From an uncultured Flavobacteriales bacterium (GTDB taxonomy: Bacteria; Bacteroidota; Bacteroidia; Flavobacteriales_D; CAJJDF01): DNA of 64,000 bases. The stretch lies in NCBI GenBank assembly GCA_905182785.1, contig CAJJDF010000016.1, positions 62,001 to 126,000 of the forward strand, in the 5' to 3' direction. Numbering within the stretch: the stretch's first letter is position 1; every line of letters begins with the position of its first letter. The notes below the pieces were generated by a model. The model worked only from the letters and a program-made list of their open reading frames with translations. It was not told the origin of the DNA and did no database searches. The position numbers were made by a program, and so were the translations under genes. Of this stretch, positions 23,465 to 42,279 are shown one piece after another.

Positions 23465-24112
23465 TCAGTCTTTTTTTGGGCATCCATTAATTGGCCCTGC
23501 AACTTTAGGACAAGCATCTTCACTGTCTTGAAATCCATCACCATCTGTATCAGGACATCCTTTAAATTTAGCCAACCCTTTAGTTGAAGGACAAACATCT
23601 TCCGTGTCTCTAATTCCATCTCCGTCAGAGTCTGGGCAACCATTAAATACAGCTAAACCTTTTACGGTTGGGCAATCATCTTTATCGTTAGCAATTCCGT
23701 CACCATCTTTATCTTGTACAGGTAATTTTGTCCCTAATTTCCTTTTAGAATCTATTTCCCATTGGTTAAACCCTCTCCATTTATTAGTATGGTTATCTAT
23801 AATTAAAGGAATCCAACCTAATACTGCAAAACCTATTGCTATATTTCCCGCTACATATTTAGGAAGAATTTCACCATCAACTGAATAACTTGTTATTGGA
23901 TAGCCATTCAATTTATATTGTATGGTATGAGATTCAGTAGTCTCTAGTGAAATTATAACTGGAGATTTTCCTATATTTTTACCATCTACTACAACTGTTG
24001 CGCTTGGCGGATCAGTTGTAAAAGTGATAGCTTGCTTAGTGTCTCTTCTCAAAAGAGTTGCACAACTTGTAAATAAAGTTACTGCTAAAAGTATGGGTAT
24101 TAATTTTCTCAT
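23465..24112 (-). CDS. Lipoprotein with PEGA-like domain and thrombospondin type 3 (Ca-binding) repeats
   Basis: Lipobox [38 protein letters not shown] repeats; reading frame breaks at an A7 run near the end. Confidence 0.75.
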
Positions 24113-36057: not shown

Positions 36058-39000
36058 ATGAGATTTAATTTTATATTAATAATAGTTCTAATATTTTTTA
36101 CTAGTTTAACTCTTAAAAGTGCTCATATCGTAGGAGGTGAAATCACCTATAGATGTCTTGATAGTAATAGGTATGAAATAACTTTAACCTTATTTAGAGA
36201 TTGTAACGGTATATCATTTGCAAATGGTGCTCAAATAGGTTGTTTCAATGGAGGAACGGGTGCACTTGTAACCAGTACATATGTTCCCTTAGACACGTCT
36301 CAATTCGTTCCATTAAATGCTGTATCGCCTTGCTTGATAATACCTCCAGGAACTTGTCTTGAACAAGCTACTTATATTGATACAGTTACACTGTTACCTG
36401 ATACAAATGGATATGACATTTCTTTTTCTGTTTGTTGTAGGAGTAATGCAAGTAATAACATTACAATTCCAGGAGGCTTTTTTGGAGGTGCAGGAAGTTC
36501 TTTTCATACTCGTATTCCACCAAATGACACCTTGTGTAATAGCAGTCCTATATTTAATAGTTATCCACCTGTTGTATTGTGTATAAATGATCCAGTATAT
36601 ATAGATTATTCTGCTACAGACGCTGATGGTGATTCTCTTTCTTATGAATTTGTTACCCCTTATACAGGAGGTAACAGTAGAAACCCAACTCCAAATCCAT
36701 CGCCTCCTCCATACGGAGTTGTAAATTGGTCTGCGGGATTTAATGTAAACTATCAAGTTCCCTCTTCCCCAGCATTCTCTTTAGACAGTGCAACCGGATT
36801 TTTAACTGGAAAACCCTCATCTCTAGGTAATTATGTAACAGGAGTTACAGTGAAAGAATATCGAAATGGGGTTTTAATAAATGAAACAAGAAGAGATTTC
36901 CTGATGATTATCGTAAACTGTTTACCAACATCTTCATCTATTGCTAATCCTGGAGTTATTTGTGATAGCTATACTGTAACATTTGGAAATGGAAGTATCA
37001 GTACTCCGACAACTACTTATTTATGGGATTTTGGTGATACATCAACCTTACTTGATACTTCTACGTTATTTAACCCTCAATATACTTATCCTGATACAGG
37101 CGTTTATATTGTAACATTAATCTCAGATCCCTACTCACCAGCATGTGCAGATACTTCCATCAGACAAATATTTGTATATCCATTAATAGGTCCTGCATTC
37201 ACAAAACCTTTAAACCAATGTTTAATTGGGAATTCATTTGATTTTACAGCAGCAGGTATCTATTTTAATACTACACAAATTGATTGGGATTTTGGACCTA
37301 CAGCTACTCCAAGATCCGATACGTCAATTAGTCCAACAGGAATTACTTATAACAGTAAAGGCTATAAAACTATTACTTTACGTTACCAAGATTTTGGATG
37401 TGACACAACTATTTTTGAAATAATAGAAGTATATCAATCACCTATTGCTGACTTTTCTTTTTCTAATAATAATTGTATTGATTATTCTATTGATTTTTAT
37501 GACTCTAGTTTATATGTAGGGGATTACTATTGGGATTTTGGTCTGATTGGAAGCACAACTGATACTTCTACGTTAGCAAATCCAACTTTTACTTTTCCTG
37601 ATACTGGTTTGTATACTGTTAGGTTAGTTGTAGACTCTAATTCTTCGACTTGCCCTGATACAATTTATAAACAAGTTCGTATTGATCCTCTATTAACTCC
37701 ATTTTTTACTTCTCCAATGGACCAATGTTTAATGGGAAATTTATTTGACTTTAACGCAGGAGGAGCATTTTACACTAATACTCAAATTAACTGGAATTTT
37801 GGACCTACAGCTACTCCAAGTACTGATAGTGTTACAAACCCAACAGGAATAGTATTTAGTAATAGCGGTACAAAAACTATTAGTATCAGGTATCAAGATT
37901 TTGGCTGTGACACCACATTTATTGATAGTGTTAATGTTTACGACAATCCAGTTTCTAGTTTCACTTATGTTGAGGATCACTGTAACAACTTTACTATTCA
38001 GTTTATTGATTCAAGTTCATTTGTAGGAGATTATTATTGGGATTTTGGTGTACTCGGTAGCACAATAGATACATCAACATCTGCTAATCCAATTTTTACT
38101 TATTTGGACTCAGGTACTTACACAGTAATGTTGGTTATAGGTTCACAGTATTTAGCTTGTCCAGATACTTCTTACCAAATAATAAGAGTTGATCCCCTAT
38201 TAAATCCTTATTTTGTTAGACCAGCTAATCAATGTTTCACTGGTAATTCTTTTAATTTTAACGCTGGTGGAGCTTTTTATCCTGGAACACAGATAGATTG
38301 GAATTTTGGTATTTCAGCTACGCCAAGTACTTCAAATATTCAAAATCCTACAGGTATTGTTTTTAATACATCAGGAAAGAAAGCAGTTACTATCAGATAC
38401 CGAGATTTTGGTTGTGATACTTCTTTTGTGGATACAATTCATGTATATGAGTTGCCAGTTGCTAATTTCATTATTGATTATGTAATTTGTGTAGACTTAG
38501 TAACTACTTTCTATGATTCAAGTTTGTATGCGGGTTCATACCAATGGGATTTTGGATTGCCAGGAATCACCAATGATACTTCCTCTTTACAAAACCCAAT
38601 ATTTACTTACCCGGATACAGGTACATACACAGTAAGATTAATTGTAAGTTCCCAGTATTTGCTTTGTGCACCTGATACTATTTACAAACAAGTAAGAATC
38701 TTTCCAGTATTAGATCCTCAGTTTAATTTACCAGCTAACCAATGTTTTGTAGGAAACGCATTTAATTTTATTGCTGATTCTAGTAGTATTTATTATCCTA
38801 CAACACAATTTACTTGGGATTTTGGACCGTCTGCAACTCCAAATTCAGATACAACACTTAATCCACCAACTTTAATATTTAATACAAGTGGGAAGAAAGC
38901 AATATCATTAATTTTTACTGATTTTGTTTGTGTCATTACTAAAACAGATACTATTGAAGTGTTTGATAATCCTGTTTCTAATTTTGGATTTACAGATAAT

Positions 39001-42000
39001 AATTGTCATGATTTATCAGTACAATTTATAGATTCTACACAATTCACAACTGAATATTATTGGGATTTTGGAGTAATACCGAGTACAACTGACACATCAT
39101 TTTTAGCAAACCCTTTGTTTAGTTATCCAGATTCTGGGGTTTATACTATAAGACTTATTGCAGATGGGAATGAATCTTTGTGCCCTGATACGTCTTATAA
39201 ACAGATAAGTTTAAATCCAATCTTAGCTCCTTATTTTAGTAAACCAGCTAATCAATGTTTTAGTGGAAATTCATTTGATTTTACAGCAGGAGGTACTTCA
39301 TATCCAGGAACTCTAATTGACTGGGATTTTGGACCTACAGCAACACCAAGCACATCAAGTATATCTAATCCTACAGGAATTGTCTTCAGTACAAGTGGTA
39401 AAAAAGCTATTACTATAAGATATAGAGAGTTTGGATGTGACACAATATTTGTAGATACTATAGAAGTGTATGATAATCCTGTTTCAAACTTCTCATTTGC
39501 CAACAACAACTGTTTTAATTTAACAGCACAGTTTTCTGATTCTAGTTTATTTGCCACAGGGCATAATTGGGATTTTGGAGTTACTACAAGTATAACTGAC
39601 ACCTCTACTTCTTCTAATCCTACTTTTACATATCCAGATTCAGGGGTTTATACAGTAAGGTTGATAGTTGATGGAAACATATCTTTATGTCCAGATACCT
39701 CATATCAACAGATAACTGTAAACCCATTACTAAATCCTTATTATAGTAAGCCCGTAGATCAATGTTTAACAAGAAACTCATTTGATTTTAATGCTGGAGG
39801 TACTTTTTTCAGTTCTACTCTAATAGATTGGGATTTTGGAGTTACAGCAACACCTAGTACTTCTTCTAATCAAAATCCAACAGGAATTACTTATAGTAAT
39901 GTAGGGTTGAAGCCGATAAGTATAAGATATAGAGATTTTGGTTGTGATACTACATTTATTGATACAATCGAAGTACATACTTCACCAACATCTAACTTTT
40001 CATTCTCTGATAACAATTGTATAGATTTTAATATCAATTTTATTGATTCTAGTTTATTAGCGGATTTTTATAATTGGGATTTTGGTGTTACTACAAGTAT
40101 TTTAGATATTTCAACAGCAACAAACCCTAGTTTTACTTTTCCAGATTCAGGAACTTATTCAGTCATGTTAATTGCAGGAACTAATTCTTCAATCTGTCCA
40201 GATACATCTTATCAGTTAGTGGCAATGTACCCACTTTTGAGTCCTTTCTTTACAAAGCCTGCAAATCAATGTATCAATGGTAATTCATTTGATTTTAATG
40301 CAGGTGGAGCTTTTTATGGAACAACTCAAATTGATTGGGACTTTGGAATTACAGCTTCACCTATTACTTCTTCAATTGCGAATCCAACAGGTGTTACATT
40401 TAGCAGTATAGGATTAAAACCTATAAGTATTAGATATAGAGCAAATGGATGTGATACTACTTATTATGATACTATAGAGGTATATCAATCTCCTTTTTCT
40501 GATTTTTCTTATACTGATAACAATTGTGTAGATTTCAGTGTTGATTTTTATGATTCAAGTTTACATGCAGGAAATTACTATTGGGATTTCGGAGTAGCTT
40601 CAATTACAACAGATACTTCTACTTCTCCTAATCCTACTTTTGTATTTCCAGATTCTGGAGTTTATAATGTAATGTTAGTAATAGATTCCAACTCTTCGAT
40701 TTGTCCTGATACATCTTATCAATTAGTAACAATGTATCCTCTTTTAAGTCCTTACTTTACAAAACCAGCAAATCAGTGTATAGATGGTAATTCATTTGAT
40801 TTTAATGCAGGAGGTGCTTTTTACGGTACTACACAAATTGATTGGGATTTTGGAGGTTCTGCAACACCTAGTACTTTTTCAGGTGCAAATCCAACTGGTA
40901 TAGTTTTTAATACAATTGGAAATAAACAGATAACGATAAGATATAGAGCCAATGGATGTGATACTAGCTTTACAGATTCTATTGAAATATATGTTTCACC
41001 TTATTCTAATTTTTCATTTTCTAATAATAATTGTGTCGATTATTTTATCCAATTCAGTGATTCAAGTGTAGATTCTAAAGATTATTACTGGGATTTTGGA
41101 GATTCTACAACTTTAGCCGATACTTCAAATTTGGCAAACCCTTCATATACTTTTCCTGATTCAGGAACCTATAAAGTTATGTTAGTGATGGGGTCAAAAA
41201 CTTCAATTTGTCCAGATACTTTGTATCAGCAAGTAATTTTGCATCCGTTATTAAGTCCATTTTTTATTGCACCAATGAATGAATGTTTGAATGAAAATTC
41301 ATTTGATTTCAATGCTGGTGGAGCTTTTTATAGCTCAACTCAAATAGATTGGGATTTTGGAATTACAGCTACACCAATTACTTCTACTGTTGCAAACCCT
41401 ACAAACATTGTTTATAGAACTAGTGGATTAAAGCCTATAAGCATAAGATATAGCGCATTTGGATGTGATACTTCTTATTTAGATACAATAGAGGTTTATC
41501 CTTCTCCTATAGCTGATTTTAGAATAAATGAAGATGAATATTGTTTAGGAGACTCTTTAGATATTGATTTAGTAAGTCTTTCAGATGCAAGTTTACTTCA
41601 TTTTTGGAATTTTGGAGACACAGGCTCTTCAACTCAATTAGCACCTATATATGTTTATCAAGATTCTGGAGTATATGATGTGACATTAATTGTAGAAAAC
41701 ACTTATGGTTGCAGAGATACAATGGAAAAACTAAATTCTATTACTGTTTTCCCAAGTCCAACAGCATTATTTTCACCTTTAATTTTAGAAACTTCGTATT
41801 ACTTCCCATATGTTACTTTTACAAATAATTCATTGAATAGTAGTTATTCAATGTTTAACAATGGAGACGGACAAATTATCTCACCTTTTAGTCAATATAA
41901 TTCAGAATATACCAGAGAAGGATTTTATTACCCTATGTTAACTGTAGAAAATATTTATGGTTGTTATGATACTTTAATTGGAGAGCTCTTTTATGAAATG

Positions 42001-42279
42001 AAATACAATTTATACATACCAAATTCATTTACTCCTAATAATGACGGTAATAATGATGTATTTCTTCCAACAATAAATATTGATTCTAATTATAATTTTA
42101 AGATTTTCAATAGGTGGGGAGAATTAATATTTGAAACTACTGATGTTCAAGAAGGTTGGGATGGATCAAGTACTAATGGAATACCACTAAAAGCTGATGT
42201 TTATGTTTATAGAATAGTATATCGTGACCCAAAAAGAGTTGTAAAAGAGATTAAAGGTCATGTTACTCTATTGAGGTAA
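36058..42279 (+). CDS. Giant secreted PKD-like repeat protein with gliding-motility C-terminal (T9SS type B) domain
   Basis: 2073 aa; signal peptide; AHIVGGEITYRCL N-domain; repeated WDFG...NPTFTYPDSGVYTVRL; C-terminal IPNSFTPNNDGNNDVF...IFNRWGELIFET..GWDG. Confidence 0.93.
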   Translation: MRFNFILIIVLIFFTSLTLKSAHIVGGEITYRCLDSNRYEITLTLFRDCNGISFANGAQIGCFNGGTGALVTSTYVPLDTSQFVPLNAVSPCLIIPPGTCLEQATYIDTVTLLPDTNGYDISFSVCCRSNASNNITIPGGFFGGAGSSFHTRIPPNDTLCNSSPIFNSYPPVVLCINDPVYIDYSATDADGDSLSYEFVTPYTGGNSRNPTPNPSPPPYGVVNWSAGFNVNYQVPSSPAFSLDSATGFLTGKPSSLGNYVTGVTVKEYRNGVLINETRRDFLMIIVNCLPTSSSIANPGVICDSYTVTFGNGSISTPTTTYLWDFGDTSTLLDTSTLFNPQYTYPDTGVYIVTLISDPYSPACADTSIRQIFVYPLIGPAFTKPLNQCLIGNSFDFTAAGIYFNTTQIDWDFGPTATPRSDTSISPTGITYNSKGYKTITLRYQDFGCDTTIFEIIEVYQSPIADFSFSNNNCIDYSIDFYDSSLYVGDYYWDFGLIGSTTDTSTLANPTFTFPDTGLYTVRLVVDSNSSTCPDTIYKQVRIDPLLTPFFTSPMDQCLMGNLFDFNAGGAFYTNTQINWNFGPTATPSTDSVTNPTGIVFSNSGTKTISIRYQDFGCDTTFIDSVNVYDNPVSSFTYVEDHCNNFTIQFIDSSSFVGDYYWDFGVLGSTIDTSTSANPIFTYLDSGTYTVMLVIGSQYLACPDTSYQIIRVDPLLNPYFVRPANQCFTGNSFNFNAGGAFYPGTQIDWNFGISATPSTSNIQNPTGIVFNTSGKKAVTIRYRDFGCDTSFVDTIHVYELPVANFIIDYVICVDLVTTFYDSSLYAGSYQWDFGLPGITNDTSSLQNPIFTYPDTGTYTVRLIVSSQYLLCAPDTIYKQVRIFPVLDPQFNLPANQCFVGNAFNFIADSSSIYYPTTQFTWDFGPSATPNSDTTLNPPTLIFNTSGKKAISLIFTDFVCVITKTDTIEVFDNPVSNFGFTDNNCHDLSVQFIDSTQFTTEYYWDFGVIPSTTDTSFLANPLFSYPDSGVYTIRLIADGNESLCPDTSYKQISLNPILAPYFSKPANQCFSGNSFDFTAGGTSYPGTLIDWDFGPTATPSTSSISNPTGIVFSTSGKKAITIRYREFGCDTIFVDTIEVYDNPVSNFSFANNNCFNLTAQFSDSSLFATGHNWDFGVTTSITDTSTSSNPTFTYPDSGVYTVRLIVDGNISLCPDTSYQQITVNPLLNPYYSKPVDQCLTRNSFDFNAGGTFFSSTLIDWDFGVTATPSTSSNQNPTGITYSNVGLKPISIRYRDFGCDTTFIDTIEVHTSPTSNFSFSDNNCIDFNINFIDSSLLADFYNWDFGVTTSILDISTATNPSFTFPDSGTYSVMLIAGTNSSICPDTSYQLVAMYPLLSPFFTKPANQCINGNSFDFNAGGAFYGTTQIDWDFGITASPITSSIANPTGVTFSSIGLKPISIRYRANGCDTTYYDTIEVYQSPFSDFSYTDNNCVDFSVDFYDSSLHAGNYYWDFGVASITTDTSTSPNPTFVFPDSGVYNVMLVIDSNSSICPDTSYQLVTMYPLLSPYFTKPANQCIDGNSFDFNAGGAFYGTTQIDWDFGGSATPSTFSGANPTGIVFNTIGNKQITIRYRANGCDTSFTDSIEIYVSPYSNFSFSNNNCVDYFIQFSDSSVDSKDYYWDFGDSTTLADTSNLANPSYTFPDSGTYKVMLVMGSKTSICPDTLYQQVILHPLLSPFFIAPMNECLNENSFDFNAGGAFYSSTQIDWDFGITATPITSTVANPTNIVYRTSGLKPISIRYSAFGCDTSYLDTIEVYPSPIADFRINEDEYCLGDSLDIDLVSLSDASLLHFWNFGDTGSSTQLAPIYVYQDSGVYDVTLIVENTYGCRDTMEKLNSITVFPSPTALFSPLILETSYYFPYVTFTNNSLNSSYSMFNNGDGQIISPFSQYNSEYTREGFYYPMLTVENIYGCYDTLIGELFYEMKYNLYIPNSFTPNNDGNNDVFLPTINIDSNYNFKIFNRWGELIFETTDVQEGWDGSSTNGIPLKADVYVYRIVYRDPKRVVKEIKGHVTLLR
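37201..41520 (+). repeat. Nine tandem coding repeats of ~507 bp (169 aa)
   Basis: (N/D)QC..GNSFDF anchor codons at 37216, 37723, 38230, 38740, 39253, 39760, 40267, 40774, 41281; spacing 507, 507, 510, 513, 507, 507, 507, 507. Confidence 0.9.

Follow-up and report, generated by a model that had tools for sequence, protein, structure and literature searches.

PKD-domain arrays are building blocks that recur commonly in the surface proteins of Bacteroidota. Of the arrays with a solved structure, the nearest is GhpA of Aureispira sp. CCB-QB1 (PDB 9flp, 9fls, 9flu, 9flv, 9flw, 9flx, 9fly and 9g8b), a surface filament linked to the type IX secretion system (T9SS) and built of tandem PKD/immunoglobulin (Ig)-like modules. 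Closer in sequence are T9SS type B PKD proteins of ~900 amino acids (aa) from the TIGR04131/CHU_C group. Here we describe a much longer protein of this kind, encoded in a 64,000-nucleotide (nt) window from an uncultured Flavobacteriales bacterium (contig CAJJDF010000016.1); all positions are those of this window unless another locus is named. A single open reading frame (ORF; 36058..42279, + strand) specifies a product of 2073 aa, which is very probably a stiff fibre of 20 PKD-type modules, stapled by disulfides, between a head and a T9SS type B anchor. We also lean, by a little, toward the broader view that in secreted-surface PKD arrays of Bacteroidota disulfides join each module to the next along the whole array, forming a covalent cable that has not been described before and is legible from sequence alone.

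The observations are the anatomy of the sequence, the fold class of the modules and the co-occurrence of their cysteines. The comparison covered about 120 related proteins. Relatives that share the N-terminal domain nearly all have an additional cysteine ahead of the first module (B0), and among the relatives first examined we saw last modules with the second cysteine of a module and without the first. These two features gave rise to the idea that the bonds run between modules. The loci gathered before the test are near-invariant in cysteine pattern, and the evidence comes from a held-out set of PKD arrays (76 proteins from 46 Bacteroidota genomes). Modules were located with an iterated profile; the first cysteine (Cys1) was scored 13-28 residues ahead of the tryptophan in WDFG and the second (Cys2) 9-19 residues past the glycine in GxYTV.

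Across the Bacteroidota arrays, Cys1 of module n and Cys2 of module n+1 agreed in 883 of 895 adjacent pairs (98.7%, phi 0.97; both absent/discordant/discordant/both present, 258/6/6/625). Several of the twelve discordant pairs are visible window misses in the sequences inspected, and with looser scoring windows 10 of the 895 were discordant. Cys1 and Cys2 of the same module agreed in 918 of 1095 modules (270/111/66/648), leaving 66 modules with Cys1 only and 111 with Cys2 only. In the held-out set the two models diverge for 109 pairs, of which 105 followed a between-module rule and 4 a within-module rule; once the data were clustered at 40% identity, 28 fitted only the former and 1 only the latter. 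The pairs that fit between-module bonding alone come from 28 genomes and 41 proteins. These counts bear on the simplest reading of a preliminary description of this DNA, in which a Cys1-Cys2 disulfide closes every PKD module on itself, as in an ordinary Ig-like domain, giving a normal beads-on-a-string stalk. Interior modules of the protein do have exactly two cysteines each, about 60 residues apart, and Cys1 and Cys2 correlate inside a module (phi 0.63), but 105 of the 109 informative held-out pairs contradict such closure, as do the single-cysteine modules. We rejected it on the co-occurrence and consider it unlikely.

When the offset k between the two modules was varied from -4 to +4, phi was.46,.47,.47,.53,.63,.968,.78,.64 and.63, with a sharp peak at +1. 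Cysteines that are free, bind metal or cross-link neighbouring copies of the protein laterally in a bundle would not need so strict an offset along one chain, and the pattern of cysteines at the start and end of a run tracks the chain. GhpA is a heptamer (PMC13319060), and chain-chain contacts therefore exist in this class; even so, we judge this explanation very unlikely. The +1 signal could also mark the unit in which modules are shuffled rather than a bond, given that arrays evolve through module duplication and recombination. However, a block running from Cys1(n) to Cys2(n+1) also includes Cys2(n) and Cys1(n+1), and these lack the same concordance (198/69/118/510), which makes shuffling the least credible of the explanations that we weighed.

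The ends of the arrays follow the same pattern. Among 41 last modules before the C-terminal domain (CTD), Cys2 was present without Cys1 in 28 and Cys1 without Cys2 in none, and the penultimate module had Cys1 in all 41. As part of the broader view, a slightly favored sequence rule would be that a stapled run opens with a Cys1-only module and closes with a Cys2-only module. As a separate observation, some PKD modules of locus L104 carry a different cysteine pair (TVCL...TTCM) that appears to be truly within-module and could serve as a natural control on stapling.

The 2073-aa protein consists of a signal peptide, an N-terminal domain, the lone module B0, nine units of one A and one B module, a degenerate module and the CTD, and the iterated PKD profile recovers 20 of 20 modules:

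36058..36120, + strand: signal peptide, about aa 1-21 (hydrophobic N-terminus, by direct reading)
36121..36942, + strand: N-terminal domain (AHIVGGEITYRC...), aa 22-295 (homologs in 59/60 relatives)
36919-36921, + strand: C288, at the end of the N-terminal domain
36943..37185, + strand: module B0, first PKD-type module (C302, C363), aa ~296-376 (module mapping)
37186..41751, + strand: nine A-B units, or 18 PKD-type modules A1,B1...A9,B9 (module mapping; AlphaFold2 fold of A7-B7-A8-B8)
37213, 37720, 38227, 38737, 39250, 39757, 40264, 40771 and 41278, + strand: unit anchors 1-9
41752..42012, + strand: degenerate last PKD-type module, aa ~1899-1985, with Cys2 (C1969, 41962-41964) and without Cys1
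42016..42276, + strand: T9SS type B sorting CTD (CHU_C / TIGR04131), aa 1987-2073 (Pfam and NCBIfam profiles)

The between-module rule pairs C288-C363, C302-C448, C388-C532 ... C1743-C1885 and C1829-C1969, for a total of 20 staples; 20 Cys1-type and 20 Cys2-type residues pair completely and all 40 array-related cysteines are accounted for. What is left over is eight cysteines of the N-terminal domain, an even number that is kept in the ortholog L003 (Crocinitomicaceae bacterium Ww488), and C62, which is not conserved there. The within-module rule, in contrast, strands C288 and C1969 without a partner at opposite ends of the protein. Judged from these patterns, Cys1 of module n is most likely stapled to Cys2 of module n+1, and the repeating mechanical element is most likely one module-module joint, A-to-B and B-to-A alike. 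The preliminary description had proposed a disulfide-paired two-module unit. The cysteines do behave as paired, but the closed two-module unit is not supported, as co-occurrence points to every module being bonded to the next.

That description had rightly given the anchor spacing as 507, 507, 510, 513, 507, 507, 507 and 507 bp; the (N/D)(Q/E)C anchors fall at aa 386, 555, 724, 894, 1065, 1234, 1403, 1572 and 1741. Its four periodic cysteines are present in all nine units, at +3, +63, +88 and +147 (displaced by 2 in unit 4 and by +1/-2 in unit 9, the second half of which is a diverged module). For nine homologous units of 169-171 aa with four conserved cysteines each, chance is of no concern. 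The units are not near-exact, as had been claimed, except in length: pairwise identity is only 37-67% at the aa and 54-72% at the DNA level. It had also overlooked B0 before unit 1, the degenerate last module, C288 and C1969. Tandem Repeats Finder (longest period 500) reported no array at the ORF; elsewhere in the window, at 23507-23662, lies a short 81-bp tandem repeat (1.9 copies, 74% matches). A promoter and terminator scan of the region found site numbers not above those of shuffles.

The fold of the modules was examined by AlphaFold2, Foldseek and hhalign, all of which agree with the earlier suggestion that two PKD-type beta-sandwich modules make up a unit. As also noted earlier, only half of the unit is readily recognized as PKD: B is a Pfam PKD module (PF18911 above cut-off over nine stretches, 223.9 bits), whereas A alone has no Pfam match. 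The two are nevertheless homologous (hhalign E 8e-5), and their alignment brings WDFG and both cysteines into register. An AlphaFold2 model of A7-B7-A8-B8, whose input was 14 rows of two units each, drawn from the window and from L003, gave four beta-sandwiches with a mean predicted local distance difference test (pLDDT) score of 85.9; its predicted template modelling (pTM) score of 0.53 makes the relative placement of the modules unreliable. Going by the model's secondary structure, all four modules carry Cys1 between strands A and B, with Cys2 located at the F-G turn. Sandwiches of the Ig/PKD type have their A-B turn at the C-terminal pole and their F-G hairpin at the opposite, N-terminal one. 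Bonding between modules thus agrees with the topology, whereas closure of each module by its own disulfide would have to join two cysteines that should occupy opposite poles.

We infer the actual bonds and the geometry, mechanics and role of the fibre as follows. The gene would make a secreted cell-surface fibre with an N-terminal head, a 20-module rod and a T9SS type B anchor. Cys1, in the A-B turn at the C-terminal pole, would bond Cys2 of the next module, which sits at that module's N-terminal pole in the F-G hairpin, with the head stapled to B0 through C288 and C1829 stapled to the last module, so that two interleaved covalent tracks would run along the rod. For every two modules, the staples would shorten the covalent path to 25 residues and one S-S. 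With 0.36 nm assumed for a residue and 0.55 nm for an S-S, the computed shortest covalent path over residues 302-1885 is 570 nm if there are no bonds; it falls to 173 nm for bonds within modules and to 99 nm for bonds between them. The folded rod is estimated at about 80 nm (assumed ~4.2 nm per module). Even with all modules unfolded, these residues would span a maximum of ~99 nm, near this folded length; between-module bonds would therefore all but fix the length of the rod, giving a nearly inextensible cable. Its likely role would be that of a stiff stalk, resistant to shear and unfolding, that holds the head away from the cell.

Several points weigh against this reading: (i) searches of the genome for DsbB and VKOR gave no match, (ii) Cys1 is present in 13 of the 41 last modules before the CTD, (iii) Cys1 and Cys2 also correlate within modules, although the phi of 0.63 is expected where most interior modules carry a staple on either side, and (iv) the argument for the bonds is an inference from co-occurrence and from an Ig-type topology taken from general knowledge. 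If the joints are all stapled, such arrays would be covalently locked rods and not flexible strings. That would matter for adhesion, for gliding and for predatory filaments. It would also raise the questions of how a disulfide-locked rod crosses the T9SS translocon and which enzyme oxidizes it where the genome has no detectable DsbB or VKOR. The phylum-wide wiring rule is the valuable part of the finding: if true, it would be a simple sequence rule for reading bonding and would correct the assumption, natural enough, that each module has one disulfide of its own. Searches of the open literature on PKD-array disulfides, on disulfides that join the domains of adhesins and on GhpA turned up no account of this bonding scheme; an earlier description may still exist elsewhere.

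The predicted T9SS C-terminus proved to be a type B CTD (PF13585, 2.6e-15, 56.7 bits against a cut-off of 27; TIGR04131, 5.4e-16, 58.5 bits against 35). The genome encodes T9SS machinery (SprA match, 2.2e-158) and has 8 PorP/SprF-family matches above cut-off; PorP/SprF proteins have been reported as anchors for type B proteins (PMC11205867). By its sequence the gene product is a giant T9SS type B surface protein, the surface location being predicted. A Pfam scan of the protein at E<=0.1 gave no match to SprB repeat domains, no ligand-binding domain was identified in the protein, and the label 'adhesin' is a guess. The N-terminus does resemble that of other large Bacteroidota surface proteins, as proposed, with domain homologs in 59 of 60 relatives; this GGEITYRC-family domain has no Pfam or NCBIfam match and often occurs several times per genome (up to 12 copies). 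AlphaFold2 of the N-terminal domain with B0, from two sequences only, reached a pLDDT of 33.9. A DsbA-family protein is encoded at C34:28575-29132. The genome holds 50 PF18911 matches and, while without a DsbB, VKOR or Thioredoxin_4 match, nonetheless encodes many secreted arrays bearing paired cysteines.

Close matches with the N-terminal domain are mostly about 900 aa or shorter, in the order B-A-B-A-B as far as the loci reach. The prevalence of this order in close relatives indicates that A/B alternation is ancestral and that the 2073-aa gene is an expanded member. The ortholog L003 is collinear and has at least eight units, a minimum count because a 100-N scaffold gap (L003:11373-11472) lies inside a near-identical repeat. 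Its units match window units 2, 3, 4, 5, 6, 8 and 9 one to one, with the 170- and 171-aa lengths of window units 3 and 4, and window unit 7 is partnerless. This unit-by-unit orthology indicates that the array predates the split of the two species and that copy number changes slowly. An assembly duplication is ruled out by the 37-67% identities and the collinear ortholog. Within L003, identity between the last two A modules is 87%, and the B modules beside the gap are nearly identical; these are signs of recent duplication or conversion.

How does the protein compare with known systems? A single-chain, elongated and mechanically strong surface stalk is also formed by SasG of Staphylococcus aureus (PMC4458895). 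The anchoring of SasG is unrelated to that of the 2073-aa protein. Its fold is not known to be related to that of PKD arrays. PKD domains of PF18911/PF00801, as in collagenase ColH and the S-layer protein 1l0q, share the fold and the WDFG/GxYTV motifs, but ColH-type modules lack the Cys1/Cys2 pattern in the alignments inspected. With the A7-B8 model, Foldseek returned PKD/Ig-type chains, those of GhpA on top (E 1.5e-13 to 1.3e-10) and then Ig-type arrays. In sequence, GhpA matches a consensus Bacteroidota PKD pair at 8.6e-49, and a Cys1-like and a Cys2-like residue are kept in the short part of that alignment inspected; its structures may already show between-module bonding. GhpA differs in being a 5898-aa, heptameric predatory hook with only 15-20% identity in the structure alignments, and it is not among the phmmer matches of the whole 2073-aa protein at E<=0.01; the likeness is limited to the fold level of the modules. 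The ~900-aa T9SS type B PKD proteins, in contrast, have the same N-terminal domain, B-A-B-A-B order, extra cysteine before B0 and CTD, with about two A-B units rather than nine. The protein belongs to a known kind, the T9SS type B PKD proteins, in expanded form.
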